A stretch of DNA of 64,000 nucleotides from Comamonadaceae bacterium. Its GTDB lineage: Bacteria; Pseudomonadota; Gammaproteobacteria; Burkholderiales; Burkholderiaceae_C. The notes under the pieces are model-generated. The model made no database searches, was not told the DNA's origin, and worked only from the letters and a program-made list of their open reading frames with translations. Where the stretch lies: the NCBI GenBank assembly GCA_003599455.1, contig QZKF01000018.1:1-64000 (forward strand), written 5' to 3'. Every line of letters begins with the position of its first letter. Position 1 is the first letter of the stretch. Positions 29,783 through 39,356 of the stretch are shown piece by piece. A program made the position numbers and the translations under genes.

Positions 29783-29800
29783 ACCGACACAGATGTCGGT
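29783..29800 (-). promoter_or_regulatory. Third leader hairpin of nirB, possible terminator stem
   Basis: ACCGACA and TGTCGGT (7-base perfect arms around four bases) follow one base after ANTAR hairpin 2. The RNA after it, CUGAUCGUAUU, is only weakly U-rich. The hexaloop ACCGAU of hairpin 2 is complementary to the 3' arm here, so the structures could compete. Confidence 0.4.
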
Positions 29801-29801
29801 T

Positions 29802-29827
29802 CCAGACTGGCCATCGGTGCCGTCTGG
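29802..29827 (-). promoter_or_regulatory. nirB leader ANTAR-type hairpin 2
   Basis: On the minus strand the arms CCAGACGGC and GGCCAGTCTGG pair over nine base pairs, with two single-base bulges in the right arm, closing a six-base loop ACCGAT. The loop has A at position 1 and G at position 4, the recognition pattern of ANTAR antiterminators. It is five bases after hairpin 1. Confidence 0.6.
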
Positions 29828-29832
29828 TCGGG

Positions 29833-29854
29833 CAGCGCACGTCGCTGTGCGCTG
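29833..29854 (-). promoter_or_regulatory. nirB leader ANTAR-type hairpin 1
   Basis: On the minus strand the perfect 8-base arms CAGCGCAC and GTGCGCTG close a six-base loop AGCGAC with A at position 1 and G at position 4. With hairpin 2 it forms the dual hexaloop element typical of RNA targets of NasR, NasT, EutV and AmiR. Confidence 0.68.
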
Positions 29855-29908
29855 GATCTCCGACGCTGGGTCGGGGATGGGACGCGTCGTTACGTCCGCT
29901 CATCACCA

Positions 29909-29924
29909 AGCAATCGCCGTGCCA
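29909..29924 (-). promoter_or_regulatory. Sigma-54 (-24/-12) promoter of nirB
   Basis: TGGCACG, four bases, TTGCT matches the RpoN consensus perfectly, with GG and GC ten bases apart. Transcription would begin near 29898, giving a leader of about 217 bases that includes the hairpins. RpoN use implies an enhancer-binding activator, most likely NtrC. Confidence 0.8.
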
Positions 29925-30023
29925 TGTCGATCGTGGTGGGCCGCCCGCCCGGTTTCAGGCATGCTTGCGGGGCTTGTGCGCGGCGGGCAGTTGCGCCAGA
30001 ACTTTTCCAAGTCATTGATTCAT

Positions 30024-31319
30024 ATGAGCATTTCGGTAGTTTTGTGGTGCGACGAGCCAGCTGGCCAGGCCCTGGTGAAGGACCTGGAAGCGGCCGGTGC
30101 CCAGGTGCTGGCGGTGGTCGAGGCCGGGCATCAGCTGGTGCAGGGCGTGGTGCGCCATGCACCAAATCTGGTGGTCGTGCAGGCCGCCGTGGCCGGGGAT
30201 GCCCTGTTCAAGACCACGCAGACGCTGGCCGAAGCCGCGCCCCTGCCGGTGCTGGTGTTCACCGCCGATGGCGACGCGGCGCACATCGCGCGCGCCACCG
30301 AGTCGGGCATCCATGCCTACGTGGTCCAGGGCTACGGCGCGCAGCGCCTGCGGCCCCTCATGCAGCTGGCGCAGGCGCGCTTTCGCCGCGAGCAGGCGCT
30401 GCTGGAAGAACTGCGCGATGTCTCCACCCGCTTCGAGGAGCGCAAGACGGTGGAGCGCGCCAAGGGCATCCTGATGCATGCGCGCCAGGTGTCCGACGAC
30501 GAGGCCTTCCAGATCCTGCGCACCGCGTCCATGCACAGCAACCAGCGCCTGGGCCAGGTGGCGCAGCACATCATCCAGTCGGCGCACTTTGCCGAGGGTG
30601 TGAACCGCGCCGGGCAGCTGCGCATGCTCTCGCAACGCCTGGTGAAGCACTGGCTGCTGCGCCTGGCGGGCGTGCAGGTCGCGAAGCACCTGGCGCTGCA
30701 GGCCGATTCGATGCAGCGCATCGACGCCAACCTCGCGCTGCTGGGCAAGAACCTGTCGCAACCCACCTTCGGCGACCTGCTGGCGCGGGTGCTGGACACC
30801 TGGACCGCGCTGAAGAAGGCGCTGGGCGCCGAGCCGGCGCCCGGGGCGCTGGCATCGATCGACGCCCTGGCCGAGCGCCTGCTGCAGGATGCCGAGCACC
30901 TGACCACCAGCCTGGAGAACGCGGGCAGCGTGGTGCAGCTGCGCATGCTCAACATGGCCGGCCGCCAGCGCATGCTGTCGCAGCGTTTTGCCAAGGCGGC
31001 GCTGCTGGGCGTGCTCGAGAGCGGCGACACCCGGCCGCAGCACCAGGCCGACATGGAGGCCGCGCGCCAGGCGTTCGAACAGGGCCTGGCCTACCTGAAC
31101 GGCCTGCCCCTGTCCACGCCCGACATCCGCCGCACGCTGGAGTCGGCCGCCCAGGGCTGGCAACAGCTGCTCATCGGCGCCGACCAGGTGCGCCGGCCGG
31201 CCGGGCGCGACCGCCTGCTGCGCCTGGAAAGCCTGGCCGCCGCCAGCGAAAGCCTGCTCGACGATTTCGAGCAGCTCGCGGCCCAGTACGAGCGCAGCAT
31301 GCAGATGCTGATGGGCTGA
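30024..31319 (+). CDS. Receiver-like/ANTAR regulator with PilJ-type domains (NasT-like)
   Basis: A 431-residue cytoplasmic regulator divergent from nirB. Residues 1-110 look like a degenerate receiver (VVLWCDEPAGQALVKDLEAA) without a clear phospho-acceptor triad. An ANTAR domain follows at about 125-190: TRFEERKTVERAKGILMHAR, then VSDDEAFQILRTASMHSNQR. The C-terminal half has two PilJ-type segments, AGQLRMLSQRLVKHWLL near 195 and MAGRQRMLSQRFAKAALL near 312, related to nitrate-sensing modules. NasT is receiver-ANTAR and NasR is NIT-ANTAR; here receiver, ANTAR and a sensor-like part are in one chain. It probably binds the nirB and nrtA leaders. ATG 30024 gives the native N-terminus. The kinase/phosphatase gene follows after 3 bases. 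Confidence 0.82.
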   Translation: MSISVVLWCDEPAGQALVKDLEAAGAQVLAVVEAGHQLVQGVVRHAPNLVVVQAAVAGDALFKTTQTLAEAAPLPVLVFTADGDAAHIARATESGIHAYVVQGYGAQRLRPLMQLAQARFRREQALLEELRDVSTRFEERKTVERAKGILMHARQVSDDEAFQILRTASMHSNQRLGQVAQHIIQSAHFAEGVNRAGQLRMLSQRLVKHWLLRLAGVQVAKHLALQADSMQRIDANLALLGKNLSQPTFGDLLARVLDTWTALKKALGAEPAPGALASIDALAERLLQDAEHLTTSLENAGSVVQLRMLNMAGRQRMLSQRFAKAALLGVLESGDTRPQHQADMEAARQAFEQGLAYLNGLPLSTPDIRRTLESAAQGWQQLLIGADQVRRPAGRDRLLRLESLAAASESLLDDFEQLAAQYERSMQMLMG

Positions 31320-31322
31320 CGC

Positions 31323-33077
31323 ATGGCCTTTCACGTGGACGTGGGCTTTGTCTGCCAGCCGGGTCGCAAGACGCCGAACGAGGATTTCTGCGCCGCCATG
31401 CTGCCGCCCGAGGGGCAGGAAGACATGGGCACCATCGTCGCCGTGGCCGACGGCGTGAGCACCGGTGGCATGGGCGGCGAGGCCGCGCAGACCACCGTCA
31501 CCAGCCTGGTGCGCAGCTACCACGACACGCCAGAGACCTGGGACACCACGGTCGCGCTGGACCGCATCATCGGCGCGCAGAACGCCTGGCTGGCCGGGGT
31601 GAACCGGCGCCGTCAGCCCGCCCTGGGCCTGACCACGCTCACCGCGCTCGTGCTGCGCGGCCAGTCGTACACCGTGGCCCATGTGGGCGACTCGCGCTGT
31701 TACCTGCTGCGCGAAGGCCAGACCCTGCTGCTCACGCACGACCACACCGTCAACCACCCCGACATGCGCCACCAGCTGCTGCGCGCCGTGGGCCTGGAAG
31801 ACCACCTCGTGGTGGACTACCTGCAGGGCGACCTGCAGGTGGGCGACACCTTCGTCATGCTCACCGACGGGGTGCACGGCAAGGTGCCCGAGCGCCGACT
31901 GGCCGAGTGGGTGGCCCAGCCCGATGCACAGGCCGCCGCCGAGCGGCTGGCGGCCGAAGCCCTGAGCGCCGGCAGCGACGACAACCTCACCGCCATGGTG
32001 GTGCGCGTGCTCGATCTGCAGGGGCCCAACCTGCAGGACGCCAGCCGCACGGCGCAGAGCCTGCCGGTGCCGCACCGGCTCAAGGTGGGCGAGGGCATCG
32101 ACGGCCTCGTCGTCACCGCCACCGTGGCCGACAACGGCATCAACCTGCTGTACCAGGTGCGCGATCCCCGCAGCCAGGTGCTCTACGCGCTCAAGACCCT
32201 GCACCCCGCGCGCGCGCACGACCCCGACGAGCGCGCCATGCTCGCGCACGAGGCCTGGCTGGCCAAGCGCATGCAGTCCTCGCGCGCGGCCGACCACCTG
32301 GTGGCTGTGCACGACCACCTGCCCGACCGCCAGCCGCGCAGCGCGTGTTACCTGCTGTACGACTGGCACGGTGGCGAGACCCTGCAGCAGCTGCTGGACC
32401 GGCAGCACCGGCTCGGCCCGGTGCAGGCCGTCAGCGCCGCCATGCAGACCTTGCGCGTGCTCGGCCTGCTGCACCGCCAGGGCGTGATCCACCGCGATGT
32501 GAAGCCGGCCAACCTGCACCAGGGCGACGACGGCGTGCTGCGCCTGCTCGATCTCGGCGTCGCCCTCAGCGGGCGCGAGCCCGAAAGCATGCGCAGCCTG
32601 CACGCGGGCACGCCCAGCTTCGTCAACCCCGAACAATGGGGGCAACACGGCAAGGCTGGTGCCGCCGCCACCGGCGAGCACGCGCCCGAACCGGCCGATG
32701 CGCAGAGCGACCTGTTTGCGCTCGGCGTCACGCTCTACCAGCTGCTCACCGGCAAGCTGCCCTATGGCGAGGTGCTGCCCTACCAGGTGGGCCGCTACTT
32801 CCGCGACCCCACGCCACCCAGCCGCCACAACCCCGAGGTGCCGATCTGGCTCGACCACGTGGTGCTCAAGGCCGTGGCGCGCGACAAGGGCCTGCGCTTC
32901 GAGACCGCCGAAGAATTCCTGCTGGCGCTCGAGCGCGGCGCCTCCCGCCCGCTCACGGTGCCCCCGGCGTCGGCCCTGCTGCAGCGCGACCCGACCATGC
33001 TGTGGAAACTGCTGCTCGCCGTGAGCGTGCTGTTCAACCTGTTGCTGGTGTACTGGCTGCTGTTCCTGCCGACGTAG
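31323..33077 (+). CDS. PP2C phosphatase fused to a Ser/Thr protein kinase, membrane-anchored
   Basis: A 584-residue bifunctional protein. Residues 1-235 are a PP2C-type phosphatase (VAVADGVSTGGMGGEAA, VAHVGDSRCYLLREGQ, VMLTDGVHGKV, SAGSDDNLTAMVV give the metal aspartates). About residues 260-540 form a Hanks-type kinase: ALKTLHPA lysine near 293, HRDVKPAN catalytic loop near 390 and LLDLGVALSG in place of DFG. The last 25 residues are one membrane helix (LLLAVSVLFNLLLVYWLLF). It starts 3 bases after the ANTAR regulator, so they are cotranscribed. Such fusions recur in nitrate-assimilation loci of Pseudomonas and Burkholderiales, but targets are unknown. Confidence 0.88.
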   Translation: MAFHVDVGFVCQPGRKTPNEDFCAAMLPPEGQEDMGTIVAVADGVSTGGMGGEAAQTTVTSLVRSYHDTPETWDTTVALDRIIGAQNAWLAGVNRRRQPALGLTTLTALVLRGQSYTVAHVGDSRCYLLREGQTLLLTHDHTVNHPDMRHQLLRAVGLEDHLVVDYLQGDLQVGDTFVMLTDGVHGKVPERRLAEWVAQPDAQAAAERLAAEALSAGSDDNLTAMVVRVLDLQGPNLQDASRTAQSLPVPHRLKVGEGIDGLVVTATVADNGINLLYQVRDPRSQVLYALKTLHPARAHDPDERAMLAHEAWLAKRMQSSRAADHLVAVHDHLPDRQPRSACYLLYDWHGGETLQQLLDRQHRLGPVQAVSAAMQTLRVLGLLHRQGVIHRDVKPANLHQGDDGVLRLLDLGVALSGREPESMRSLHAGTPSFVNPEQWGQHGKAGAAATGEHAPEPADAQSDLFALGVTLYQLLTGKLPYGEVLPYQVGRYFRDPTPPSRHNPEVPIWLDHVVLKAVARDKGLRFETAEEFLLALERGASRPLTVPPASALLQRDPTMLWKLLLAVSVLFNLLLVYWLLFLPT

Positions 33078-36355: not shown

Positions 36356-37651
36356 TCAGGCCGCGTTGATCTTGAAGCTGTCGGCGTACTTCGCCGGGTC
36401 CTTGCCGTCCCACACCACGCCGTCGATGAACTTGGCGCTGCGCATCTCGGACTTGGGCAGCGAGGTCTTGCTGGCCGCCGCGGCCTGCTTGAAGATGTCG
36501 ATGCGGTTGACCTGTCTGGCCACGGCCAGGTAGTCGGGATGCGACTTGAGCAGGCCCCAGCGCTTGTGCTGCGTCAGGAACCACATGCCGTCGCTCAGGT
36601 AGGGGAAGTTGGCCGAGCCGTCGTTGTAGAACTTCATGTGGTTGGGGTCGTCCCAGGTCTTGCCCATGCCGTTCTGGTAGCGGCCCAGGATGCGCTGGTT
36701 GATCGCGTCCACGCTGGTGTTCACGTAGGAGCGCTGCGCGATGGTCTCGGCCATCTTGTTCTTGTTCTGCAGGCCGGCGTCGATCCACTTGCCGGCTTCC
36801 AGGATGGCGGCCGTCACGGCGCGCGCGGTGTTGGGGTTCTTCTGCACGAACTCGGCCGTGGTGCCCAGCACCTTCTCGGGGTGGTCCTTCCAGATGTCCT
36901 GGGTGGTATTGGCCGTGATGCCGATGCCGTCCATGATGGCGCGGTGGTTCCAGGGCTCGCCCACGCAGAAGCCGTCCATGTTGCCCACGCGCATGTTGGC
37001 CACCATTTGCGGCGGCGGCACCACGATGGCGCGCGCGTCCTTCATCGGGTCGATGCCGGCGGCGGCCAGCCAGTAGTACAGCCACATGGCGTGCGTGCCG
37101 GTGGGGAAGGTCTGGGCGAAGGTGTATTCGCGCTTCTCGGTGGCCATCAGCTTGGCCAGCGAGGGGCCGTCCACCGCGCCTTTTTCGGCCAGCTTCTTCG
37201 ACAGCGTGATGGCCTGGCCGTTCTGGTTCAGGTTCATCAGCACCGCCATGTCCTTCTTCGGCCCCGAGGTGCCGAGTTGCAGGCCATAGACCAGGCCGTA
37301 GAGCACGTGGGCAAAGTCCAGCTCGCCGTTGACCAGCTTGTCGCGCACGCCGGCCCAGCTCGCTTCCTTGGTCGGCACGATCTTCACGCCGTACTTCTTG
37401 TCGATGCCGAGCTCGGCGGCCATCACCACGCTGGCGCAGTCGGTCAGCGGGATGAAGCCGATCTTGACCTCGGTCTTTTCCGGTGCGTCGGAGCCGGCGG
37501 CCCAGACGCCGTGGTGGCCCAGCGTGGAGAAGAGGGCGGCGGTGCCGATGGCGCTGCCCTTCTTGATGAATTCGCGGCGCGAGGCGGCGGCGGTGTCGGT
37601 GCCCGTGGCGGGGGTGAGGCTGTCCGCTGGCTTGGGGGTGTCTGCGTGCAT
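36356..37651 (-). CDS. nrtA: Nitrate ABC transporter substrate-binding protein (Tat-exported)
   Basis: A 431-residue periplasmic nitrate-binding protein of the NrtA/NasF family. Residues 23-45 contain a twin-arginine signal (SRREFIKKGSAIG then a hydrophobic stretch), so export by Tat is likely. The mature part has VKIGFIPLTDCASVVMAAEL, PTGTHAMWLYYWLAAAGIDP near 198 and NMDGFCVGEPWNHRA near 238, typical of nitrate-specific members. Start ATG 37651 has AAGGAG upstream; a longer frame to 37720 would run through the leader terminator and is rejected. It is first in nrtABD and sits behind the attenuator-like leader. Confidence 0.93.
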   Translation of the reverse strand: MHADTPKPADSLTPATGTDTAAASRREFIKKGSAIGTAALFSTLGHHGVWAAGSDAPEKTEVKIGFIPLTDCASVVMAAELGIDKKYGVKIVPTKEASWAGVRDKLVNGELDFAHVLYGLVYGLQLGTSGPKKDMAVLMNLNQNGQAITLSKKLAEKGAVDGPSLAKLMATEKREYTFAQTFPTGTHAMWLYYWLAAAGIDPMKDARAIVVPPPQMVANMRVGNMDGFCVGEPWNHRAIMDGIGITANTTQDIWKDHPEKVLGTTAEFVQKNPNTARAVTAAILEAGKWIDAGLQNKNKMAETIAQRSYVNTSVDAINQRILGRYQNGMGKTWDDPNHMKFYNDGSANFPYLSDGMWFLTQHKRWGLLKSHPDYLAVARQVNRIDIFKQAAAASKTSLPKSEMRSAKFIDGVVWDGKDPAKYADSFKINAA

Positions 37652-37671
37652 GTCCAACTCCTTGCTGATTG

Positions 37672-37746
37672 AAAAAACCTGAGAACCAAAGCAGAACGGC
37701 GCCCATTTCCGAGCCTGCATCGAGCGGGCGGGAAATGGACGCCGTT
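37672..37746 (-). terminator. Leader terminator/attenuator stem of nrtA
   Basis: On the minus strand the 16-base arms AACGGCGTCCATTTCC (37746-37731) and GGAAATGGGCGCCGTT (37710-37695) pair completely as RNA, with one G-U wobble, around a 20-base loop. A run of six T residues follows at 37677-37672, about 17 bases after the stem, further than in a textbook terminator. The 5' arm overlaps ANTAR-type hairpin 2, so the two cannot form together. Confidence 0.65.
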
Positions 37747-37750
37747 GTCC
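37737..37750 (-). promoter_or_regulatory. nrtA leader ANTAR-type hairpin 2
   Basis: On the minus strand GGAC, the six-base loop AACGGC and GTCC form a short perfect hairpin; the loop has A at position 1 and G at position 4. Ten of its bases are the start of the terminator's 5' arm, the arrangement expected for antitermination by an ANTAR protein. Confidence 0.6.
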
Positions 37751-37772
37751 GTGTCTGGGAAGACTGTGAAAT

Positions 37773-37794
37773 GCCTTGCCGCCATTGGCCGGGC
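37773..37794 (-). promoter_or_regulatory. nrtA leader ANTAR-type hairpin 1
   Basis: On the minus strand GCC-CG-GCC and GGC-AA-GGC pair as two 3-bp helices separated by a 2x2 internal loop, closing a six-base loop AATGGC with A at position 1 and G at position 4. It begins about 8 bases after the predicted transcription start. Confidence 0.5.
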
Positions 37795-37812
37795 GTTCCT
37801 GGCGTTCATTGA

Positions 37813-37828
37813 AGCAGGTACCGTGCCA
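37813..37828 (-). promoter_or_regulatory. Sigma-54 (-24/-12) promoter of nrtA
   Basis: TGGCACG, four bases, CTGCT differs from the RpoN consensus at one position, with GG and GC ten bases apart. Predicted start near 37802 gives a leader of about 150 bases to the nrtA ATG, containing both hairpins and the terminator stem. Confidence 0.75.
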
Positions 37829-37960
37829 GCCCGAGGGTTATCCCGCGGTGCGCTGGCAGGTATTTGATTTCAAAGGAAAAAAGGCTCGCCAAGGGGTGGC
37901 GACGGGCCGGCCTGGGCGGCCCTGTAGGCGGGCATCAATGTGGTGCGGCGGGCGTGCGCG

Positions 37961-37975
37961 GCACGGTATTTGTGC
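37961..37975. promoter_or_regulatory. NtrC-like enhancer site upstream of nrtA
   Basis: GCAC, seven bases, GTGC reproduces the dyad core of the NtrC consensus, about 145 bases upstream of the sigma-54 promoter, a usual enhancer distance. It is in the nasR-nrtA gap. Confidence 0.55.
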
Positions 37976-37995: not shown

Positions 37996-39288
37996 TCAGT
38001 GCGGCGGGGGCAGCATGTCGGCCATCGCCAGCACCGCCTCGGCCACTTCGATGAGCCGGCGGTTCTGGTTCATGGCCATCTGGCGCATGGTCTTGTGGGC
38101 CGCTTCCTCGCTGAGCTGGCGGTGCGCCATCAGCAGGCCCTTGGCGCGTTCGATCACCTTGCGCTCGTTGAGGCTGGCGCGCACGGTGTCGAGTTCCTCG
38201 CTCATGGTCTGCAGGCGCCGCGCCTGCTCCTGCACCAGCTCGAGGATCGACCGCTCCAGCTGCAGGCCATAGCCCTGCGCGTTGGCGCCGAAGCCGGCCG
38301 CGCCGGCCTGGGCGGCCTGCGGCGCGGGGTCGGGCACCGGTACGTCGCGGAAGAAGGACAGGGCGTCGGCCTCGCGCGTGGCGGTGCTGCTGAGCGCGTG
38401 GTAGGCGTCGAGCTCGGCGCTGGCCGCGCCGATCTTCTCCTCGCAGGCGCGCAGCAGGTCGAGCGCGAGCCGGTCTTCCACCGCCTTCATGCGGTCGATG
38501 CGCTGGCTGCAGCAATCGAACCAGACCTGGCTGAGTTGCACGTTGAGCGGCGCGCCGTTCGCGGCGGTGCAGAGCACGCGGCGCAGGCGCTCGATCTCGG
38601 CCAGGGTGGAGCTGGCCTGGCTGGCGGCCCACAGATCGACCACCCTGGGGTGGGCGAACTCGGCAAACACCTCCAGGCAGCGCTCCTGCGACTCGATCAG
38701 GTGCAGCAGGCGCTGCTGTTCCGAGGTCTCGGCGTGGCCGGAGGCAAACAGGGCCGAGCCGGCCGCGCGCTCCTGGCCGGCGAATTCCTTGCCCTGCATG
38801 AAGTTGAACAGGGCCACCAGCAGGCGCGAGATCTCGGGGTCGCTGGCGCTGTCGGCGGCTTCGAACACCACCGCCAGCAGCCCGGCGATCAGGCGCACAT
38901 AGGCCTCGGTGGCCTGGCGCGGTGTCCATTCCAGCGCATCGATGCGCGCGCGCAGGCCGCCCAGCGCGTCCAGCCCGTGCAGCACGTAGGCGATGCGGCT
39001 GAACAGCCGCGCGCCGTGGCCGACCCGGGCCGATTCGGTGTCCAGGCTGTCGAAACAGGCCCGCAGCTCGGCCTCGGTCTGGCGGCATTCCTCGATCTGT
39101 TTGGCGCGCATCTCGGTGAAGCGCGCGCCCTGGGAGCCGAGGTGCAGGTTGGACAGGCCGCGCTCGCGCTGCAGGCCGTGCACCAGGCGCCCGGTGACGT
39201 TCACCAGCGCGCTGGTGAGCGCGAGCTGCTGGAGCTCGGCGATTTCGCAGCGCTTGGCGGCGACGAGGAAATTCAGGCCCGATTTCAT
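37996..39288 (-). CDS. nasR: Nitrate-responsive antiterminator NasR (NIT-ANTAR)
   Basis: A 430-residue regulator. The N-terminal 290 residues are an all-helical NIT domain ([20 protein letters not shown], with ERG after an HGLQ-R motif as in nitrate/nitrite-sensing domains). The C-terminal ANTAR domain at about 365-425 reads [20 protein letters not shown] then [20 protein letters not shown]. In Klebsiella, NasR binds nitrate or nitrite and prevents termination in the nasF leader; here the next gene on the same strand is nrtA, with a matching leader, so the role is very likely the same. Start ATG 39288 gives [20 protein letters not shown]; the longer upstream frame is antisense to tsaD. Confidence 0.9.
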
Positions 39289-39356
39289 GTGTTCGTGGGG
39301 TGGCGTGGCATGACCTGAGTGTCCAGCAACAAACATGCCGCCCGTACACTTCCCGC

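Follow-up and report, generated by a model that had tools for sequence, protein, structure and literature searches.

Sequence evidence for a probable sigma-54-initiated, ANTAR-controlled transcription attenuator in the nrtA leader of a Comamonadaceae bacterium

How might a nitrate transport operon that lies directly behind a nasR gene be regulated? In the Comamonadaceae bacterium studied here, the region between the nasR stop codon (37996) and the nrtA ATG (37651) holds a promoter and several hairpins, and the whole arrangement spans the minus strand from 37975 to 37651. All positions refer to the window, the 64,000-nucleotide stretch of contig QZKF01000018.1 that we analysed. An earlier note, made from the letters alone, had read this leader as nitrate-dependent antitermination of nrtABD under nitrogen control. 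Comparison with related sequences supports that reading well, and we consider it very probable that nrtABD is controlled by a transcription attenuator in this leader, with initiation by sigma-54 and an ANTAR protein as the regulator.

The gene immediately upstream is nasR, as previously stated. Its product, the likely antiterminator acting on the leader, matches the Pfam families NIT (E 7.5e-58) and ANTAR (E 5.6e-19) and aligns with the solved structure of Klebsiella oxytoca NasR (4akk; E 2.9e-50). The residues matched to NasR R340, K347, R366 and N373 are kept in this alignment (K. oxytoca numbering, with an offset worked out in this analysis). The position of W362, which K. oxytoca NasR is reported to require for RNA binding (PMC7496416), is a histidine in the window and in the family consensus, and E191 and R193, which make off-state contacts, have no match in the alignment of the window's protein. 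Details of autoinhibition may therefore differ. Downstream of nrtA are nrtB (assigned by position), nrtD (TIGR01184, above the cut-off) and a NarK-type transporter, for which the best match, TIGR00886, is below the cut-off. One RpoN match and, above the cut-off, one NtrC-family match were found in the genome (106 contigs, 95% complete), as were two ANTAR genes, both inside the window. The closest named nasR loci are mostly from Hydrogenophaga, with identities of up to 83% among matches that may omit the records nearest to the window; the host therefore probably belongs to this genus or to a near neighbour of it.

Table 1. Features of the nasR–nrtA region, in window coordinates
Feature	Position	Strand	Remarks
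nasR, NIT nitrate/nitrite-sensing and ANTAR RNA-binding domains	37996..39297	-	start codon inferred
NtrC-type palindrome GCACAAATACCGTGC	37961..37975	-	enhancer-like; centred some 140 nt before the -24 box
Probable nasR terminator (hairpin plus T run)	37886..37902	-	pattern scan only
Sigma-54 promoter TGGCACGGTACCTGCT	37813..37828	-	one mismatch to consensus
P1 hairpin, loop AAUGGC (A1, G4), C-G closing pair	37773..37794	-	
M, small linker hairpin GUCU[UCCC]AGAC	37753..37764	-	weak alone, -1.2 kcal/mol
P2 (antiterminator) hairpin GGAC[AACGGC]GUCC	37737..37750	-	
Intrinsic terminator, 16-bp stem	arms 37746-37731 and 37710-37695	-	
Terminator U-tract TTCTGCTTT, imperfect	37688..37696	-	aligned with the U-rich tails of relatives
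nrtA ribosome-binding site AAGGAG	37658..37663	-	
nrtA, nitrate-binding protein	36356..37651	-	Pfam NMT1_2, E 2.3e-102

Direct reading of the minus strand bears out most of the layout first described for this leader (Table 1): the one-mismatch RpoN promoter (also found at 36/36 nrtA loci, see below), the AATGGC-loop hairpin and the 4-bp AACGGC-loop hairpin, A1 and G4 in both loops, the 16-bp stem that has ten bases in common with P2, and the ribosome-binding site of nrtA. The core of P1, GCC[AATGGC]GGC, is read at 37789-37778. P1 and P2 thus carry A1/G4 hexaloops on stems of at least 3 bp, the arrangement that, with a linker of variable length, defines an ANTAR dual-hairpin target (PMC3369931). 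The 5′ arm of the terminator stem contains the loop and the 3′ arm of P2, so that P2 and this intrinsic terminator, whose U-tract is imperfect in the window, overlap and exclude each other; an ANTAR protein encoded in the genome completes the set of parts of an ANTAR attenuator. Farther upstream, a hairpin probably ends nasR and separates it from the nrtA promoter, from which transcription is predicted to start at about 37802.

The earlier note had also named a T6 run as the terminator tail and remarked on a long gap before it. The run exists (37677-37672, minus strand), 17 nt past the terminator stem, but it was rejected as the tail: the U-tract starts at the end of the stem and aligns with the tails of relatives, which sit directly after the stem and often read GTTTTTGTTTTT. 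The U-tract of the window is poorer than that of a sister locus, L053 (TTTTGCTTT).

P2 and the terminator cannot coexist, and the energies of the two are far apart (−4.0 kcal/mol for P2 versus −35.8 kcal/mol for the terminator stem). The leader folds better than 200 of 200 shuffles (z −3.17). Forcing P2 with its loop unpaired changes the model energy from −56.1 to −41.4 kcal/mol; because of this cost of about 15 kcal/mol, P2 would require the aid of a binder or of timing.

Relatives of the locus retain this organization. A NasR search of 200 genomes gave any match in 148, many to the ANTAR part only, and we fetched 51 loci picked for matches that extend into the NIT part. An NrtA match is present in 35 of these, which with the window make 36 nrtA loci. 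The sigma-54 box, P1, P2 and the terminator occur in all 36 and the A1/G4 loops are retained; the exceptions of detail are L059, with only two contiguous P1 pairs, L081, with a G-U pair in P2, and L035 and L042, with mismatches in a terminator arm. The stems of P1 and the terminator covary, a check that the earlier note had proposed: 14 of 24 pairs are changed on both sides (alignment A1), compared with 11.2 in shuffles, 1 of 500 of which reached that count, and the covariation score is 0.361 versus 0.140 in shuffles and at most 0.112 in slid controls. In the terminator stem by itself, both partners vary in 7 of the 16 pairs; the P2 stem is nearly invariant. The MAFFT alignment displaces P1 in L042 and, for some rows with long linkers, the outer arm of P1; the effect on these counts is to lower them, not to raise them.

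The leader also follows nasR in named records. A scan of the 900 nt after nasR in titled records, counting leader elements only, found promoter, P2 and terminator in 77 of 80 loci; the three misses are two contigs that end 136 and 325 nt past the scan point and L257, in which the stretch is empty. By a loose rule P1 is present in 76 of the 77, L294 being the one without it. Since eight of the 77 duplicate leaders of the first set, 105 of the 113 pooled leaders (36 nrtA loci plus 77 named nasR loci) are distinct.

The third base of the P2 loop pairs within the terminator. Across the 36 nrtA loci, the combination of this base with its terminator partner is C/G in 31, A/U in three (L063, L066 and L067) and a C/U mismatch in two. 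A broader collection of 231 elements was scored leaving that position out. There, a loop-3 A faces U in 80/80 cases, a loop-3 C faces G in 94/137 (otherwise U in 35 cases, and A or C in the other 8), and the 14 leaders with U at loop 3 have U (10), G (2) or A (2) opposite. The C/G cases carry most weight, because a U opposite the loop costs little where the tail is U-rich. Perfect co-change of the P2 loop and the terminator arm did not hold, given exceptions in 2/36 loci (L035 and L042) and in 43/137 C3-loop leaders.

Does the promoter place the leader under nitrogen control? As stand-alone evidence the sigma-54 pattern was discarded, with fewer matches in the window (26 sites with up to two mismatches) than the 43 expected by chance; the site is significant because it is conserved in 36/36 nrtA loci. 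C, the letter at its mismatched −12 position, is the commonest there (23/36 leaders). The NtrC-type consensus is GCACN7GTGC. This pattern too occurs in the window at chance level (4 found versus 5.3 expected), and the window's site counts only because its place is conserved. In 84 of the 113 leaders an exact match lies in the 300 nt that precede the sigma-54 box (shuffles, 2.1; maximum of 30 shuffles, 6); with one mismatch allowed, the palindrome precedes 103/113 leaders, compared with 34.8 in shuffles, and these sites concentrate some 80 to 160 nt ahead of the box. Exact sites at spacings of 5, 6, 8 and 9 were found in 0, 9, 6 and 2 leaders, respectively. The −24/−12 boxes, the NtrC site and the genes for RpoN and NtrC are all those of a sigma-54/NtrC promoter, and together they support nitrogen control of the leader.

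We propose the following sequence of events. When nitrogen is low, NtrC bound about 140 nt upstream would activate RpoN polymerase, as the sites and genes suggest, and transcription would begin near 37802. In the absence of nitrate, P1 would form first and the 16-bp terminator after it, and transcription would end around 37688. When nitrate or nitrite is present, NasR would grip P1 and P2 through their A1/G4 loops, by analogy with K. oxytoca NasR; P2 so held would withhold its loop and 3′ arm from the terminator, and the polymerase would continue into nrtA. Because start and readthrough would each be gated, both nitrogen need and the presence of nitrate would be required.

The linker between the hairpins, which the earlier note had rightly called longer than usual, measures 27 nt from the inner P1 stem and 22 nt from the outer one. 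In the 36 leaders the median gap is 26 nt, with six at 9–16 nt and two near 60 nt. Natural EutV linkers are given as 5–12 nt, with 14 nt impairing function (PMC3369931), and an additional 20 nt in the linker abolishes function (PMC8934654); the window leader falls outside the EutV-type range of 5–12 nt. Across the leaders compared, the long linker is a family trait, with a small third hairpin inside it in many relatives.

In the window this third hairpin would be M. Its four pairs are kept in 15 of the 16 closest leaders (closing pair UA in 12, CG in 2 and AU in 1), and covariation among these closest relatives comes from a single pair. Over the 36 nrtA leaders, which are related sequences, the M score is 3.79 versus 2.96 in shuffles (sd 0.18), with 0 of 200 shuffles as high; p-values per leader are mostly not small, and in the window's own linker the scoring script favoured another pairing over M. 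A wider set of 138 leaders of fetched loci comprises 31 with at least two upstream A1/G4 C-G-closed hairpins, 41 with a single hairpin and a linker of up to 18 nt, and 66 with a single hairpin and a longer linker. An extra hairpin ending within 12 nt of P2 was found in 41 of these 66 long-linker leaders (shuffles, 22.5; sd 3.5; maximum 31; n = 200). We take M to be a likely linker hairpin of the window leader, and most likely it folds up the long gap between P1 and P2, a role of which we are less sure.

The newest observation of this analysis is a form with three hairpins. Among 200 distinct leaders chosen by a sigma-54 box (up to one mismatch), P2 and a terminator, 22 have at least two upstream A1/G4 hairpins (stems of at least 4 pairs), and thus three with P2, an arrangement that occurred 0 times in 50 shuffles of each; 31 of the 200 have no upstream hairpin by a C-G-closed, three-pair rule. 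These counts are not of independent events, because the loci are related to varying degrees. Three A1/G4 C-G-closed hairpins after the sigma-54 box are seen in L094, L095, L097, L099, L103, L112, L113 and L126, and also in L150, L158, L164, L167, L171, L236, L271 and others. From its position only, M in the window may be a decayed middle A1/G4 site. It is conceivable, if somewhat doubtful, that proteobacterial nitrate leaders use a three-hairpin ANTAR scaffold (upstream, middle and P2) in which all three hairpins are A1/G4 in some lineages, the middle one has turned into a plain bridge in the window's lineage and the first has done so in others. If so, ANTAR spacing would be set by folded geometry rather than by linker length. 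A search of mainly open-access literature found neither a three-hairpin ANTAR leader nor a link between narK RNA and ANTAR proteins.

A covariance model of the leader (R1) gave one strong hit in its own genome: the leader at 88.1 bits, besides its antisense at 32.4 bits, with four other hits at E 0.09 to 2.8. Similar leaders occur elsewhere in the order and class, with R1 matches (E up to 0.01, stricter filters) in 91/300 genomes of the order and, under the same limits, in 38/299 genomes of a phylum sample in which this order is also represented. We examined the 54 best-scoring R1 loci (L084 and L090–L142): in 49 of them a match to NrtA, NarK, NirB or NasR lies no more than about 700 nt downstream, some NarK matches having just 22–26% identity, and in L117, L132, L138, L139 and L142 no match to these four proteins was found within that distance.

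At gathering cut-offs, Rfam finds nothing besides a tRNA in the window and in L053, L034, L057 and L072. The window scores below the gathering cut-off, and so outside family membership, both for RF00625 P11 (22.8 bits, E 0.0048; cut-off 70) and for RF03032 narK RNA (22.2 bits, E 0.041; cut-off 43.2). Of 20 loci compared with Rfam, six are P11 and two are narK RNA above the cut-offs, and window-type leaders are below them. From these scores, P11 and narK RNA appear to be two branches, separately named, of a single kind of element. In five Rfam P11 loci (L129, L213, L214, L215 and L220) the middle hairpin has the form (U)CCCG[AxxGAx]CGGG(A), with A1/G4 and G-C closing.

The window has a further candidate leader. 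Upstream of nirB (29924-29682, minus strand) there is a perfect sigma-54 box, a P1-like hairpin GGACGT[AACGAC]GCGTCC and a P2-like hairpin CAGCGCAC[AGCGAC]GTGCGCTG; the nirB copy of the sister L053 has the compensated stem CTGTGCAC[AACGAC]GTGCGCAG and has lost A1 in P1. In this region we saw no terminator overlapping P2, and neither Rfam nor R1 gave a hit there. We regard it as a candidate second, divergent leader and do not claim that it is the same element. A leader for narK (34517-34382) was ruled out, A1/G4 hairpins being absent.

Divergent from nirB is the gene for the second ANTAR protein (29793-31316, plus strand), with a weak receiver domain (below cut-off), an ANTAR domain and PilJ-type domains, which is possibly a one-protein sensor-antiterminator for the nirB leader. 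Between this gene and narK lies a PP2C-type phosphatase–protein kinase fusion (31323-33077, plus strand), relatives of which occur near several nirB/nasR loci. In L060, L065, L074 and L076, proteins between nirB and nasA match the PilJ part of the second ANTAR protein only. Upstream of distant nirB genes in L041, L043, L044, L048 and L082, the hairpin TCCGCT[AACGAC]GGCGGA or close forms of it, with U-G closing, follows a sigma-54-like box, and a more distant NIT-ANTAR gene is nearby.

Could another protein, or no protein at all, act on the nrtA leader? PilJ-type domains may sense ligands. The REC-ANTAR-PilJ protein, the only other ANTAR gene product found in the genome, might serve the same attenuator in place of NasR. 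However, its gene adjoins nirB and not nrtA, the leader sits behind nasR in nearly all named nasR loci (77/80), and near-full-length relatives were matched at just three of the 51 loci fetched (L042, L053 and L066), which is an undercount because the loci were centred on nasR; we judge this assignment improbable. The hairpins could also form a constitutive terminator or a small, stable, trans-acting RNA without nitrate control, given that P11 is catalogued as an sRNA gene, which the window matches below threshold, and that termination in the leader would itself release a short RNA. Against this, the P2 stem is conserved beyond the needs of a terminator, the A1/G4 loops are kept, an ANTAR gene is adjacent, and a review citing Pseudomonas work describes the nirBD leader nalA as antiterminated by NasT (PMC12830290); we consider this reading very improbable.

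Nitrogen-only control, with a sigma-54/NtrC start and inert leader hairpins, would account for the strong conservation of the promoter and NtrC sites, but inert hairpins would not retain A1/G4 loops and covarying stems in distant genera, and we give this reading next to no credence. We prefer the ANTAR attenuator with NasR as its antiterminator. Counted against it are the leaders without an upstream hairpin (31/200) or without the partner G (43/137), the weak U-tract, a P1–P2 gap beyond EutV tolerance and the histidine at the W362 position.

The window leader belongs to the known kind of NasR/NasT leader, represented by Klebsiella nasF and Pseudomonas nalA. With nitrate, K. oxytoca NasR binds two A1/G4 C-G-closed hairpins, and readthrough at nasF is nitrate-dependent (PMC7496416). 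The window resembles nasF in its NIT-ANTAR regulator, its two A1/G4 C-G-closed hairpins and its terminator (PMC7496416), and in its proposed combination of Ntr control with nitrate (PMC7496416 and PMC5424462); unlike nasF, it has nrtABD as its target, right behind nasR and in a betaproteobacterium. Window-type leaders have a P1–P2 gap of 22–27 nt with a small hairpin. The nalA leader, which we infer to be P11, starts from sigma-54 with NtrC and is antiterminated by an ANTAR protein, NasT (PMC12830290). The P11-type P2, GGAC[AAAGGC]GUCC, is close to that of the window, and R1 finds loci above the P11 gathering cut-off. The nalA/P11 leaders differ in having the two-component NasS-NasT system, in driving nirB and, in the loci seen, in an A1/G4 middle hairpin with G-C closing.

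The nasA leader of Paracoccus denitrificans, which is nitrate-regulated through NasT, also has two hairpins, HI and HII (PMC5424462); it differs in its NasS-NasT system and in being alphaproteobacterial. That source places the hairpins 137 and 91 bp before nasA, and wide spacing may already be implicit there. Like the window, the RF03032 narK RNA model has a sigma-54-like start and an A1/G4 hairpin with another such site after it; its linker is shorter. Enterococcus EutV eut leaders share the dual A1/G4 hexaloop hairpins and the overlap of P2 with the terminator, but have the two-component EutV, linkers of 5–12 nt and ethanolamine genes (PMC3369931).

Novelty is limited, because general predictions existed both for ANTAR sites preceding nitrate transporters (PMC3369931) and for sigma-54 promoters preceding nitrate ABC transporters (PMC12316311). 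The comparisons made here tie two differently named Rfam families to one kind of element, and the Rfam models miss Comamonadaceae-type leaders at their cut-offs in the loci tried. Many natural leaders have long or hairpin-filled linkers and offer material for testing the EutV spacing rule. In Comamonadaceae and their neighbours, nrtABD operons that follow nasR are likely to share one design, NasR-type nitrate antitermination joined to sigma-54/NtrC control.
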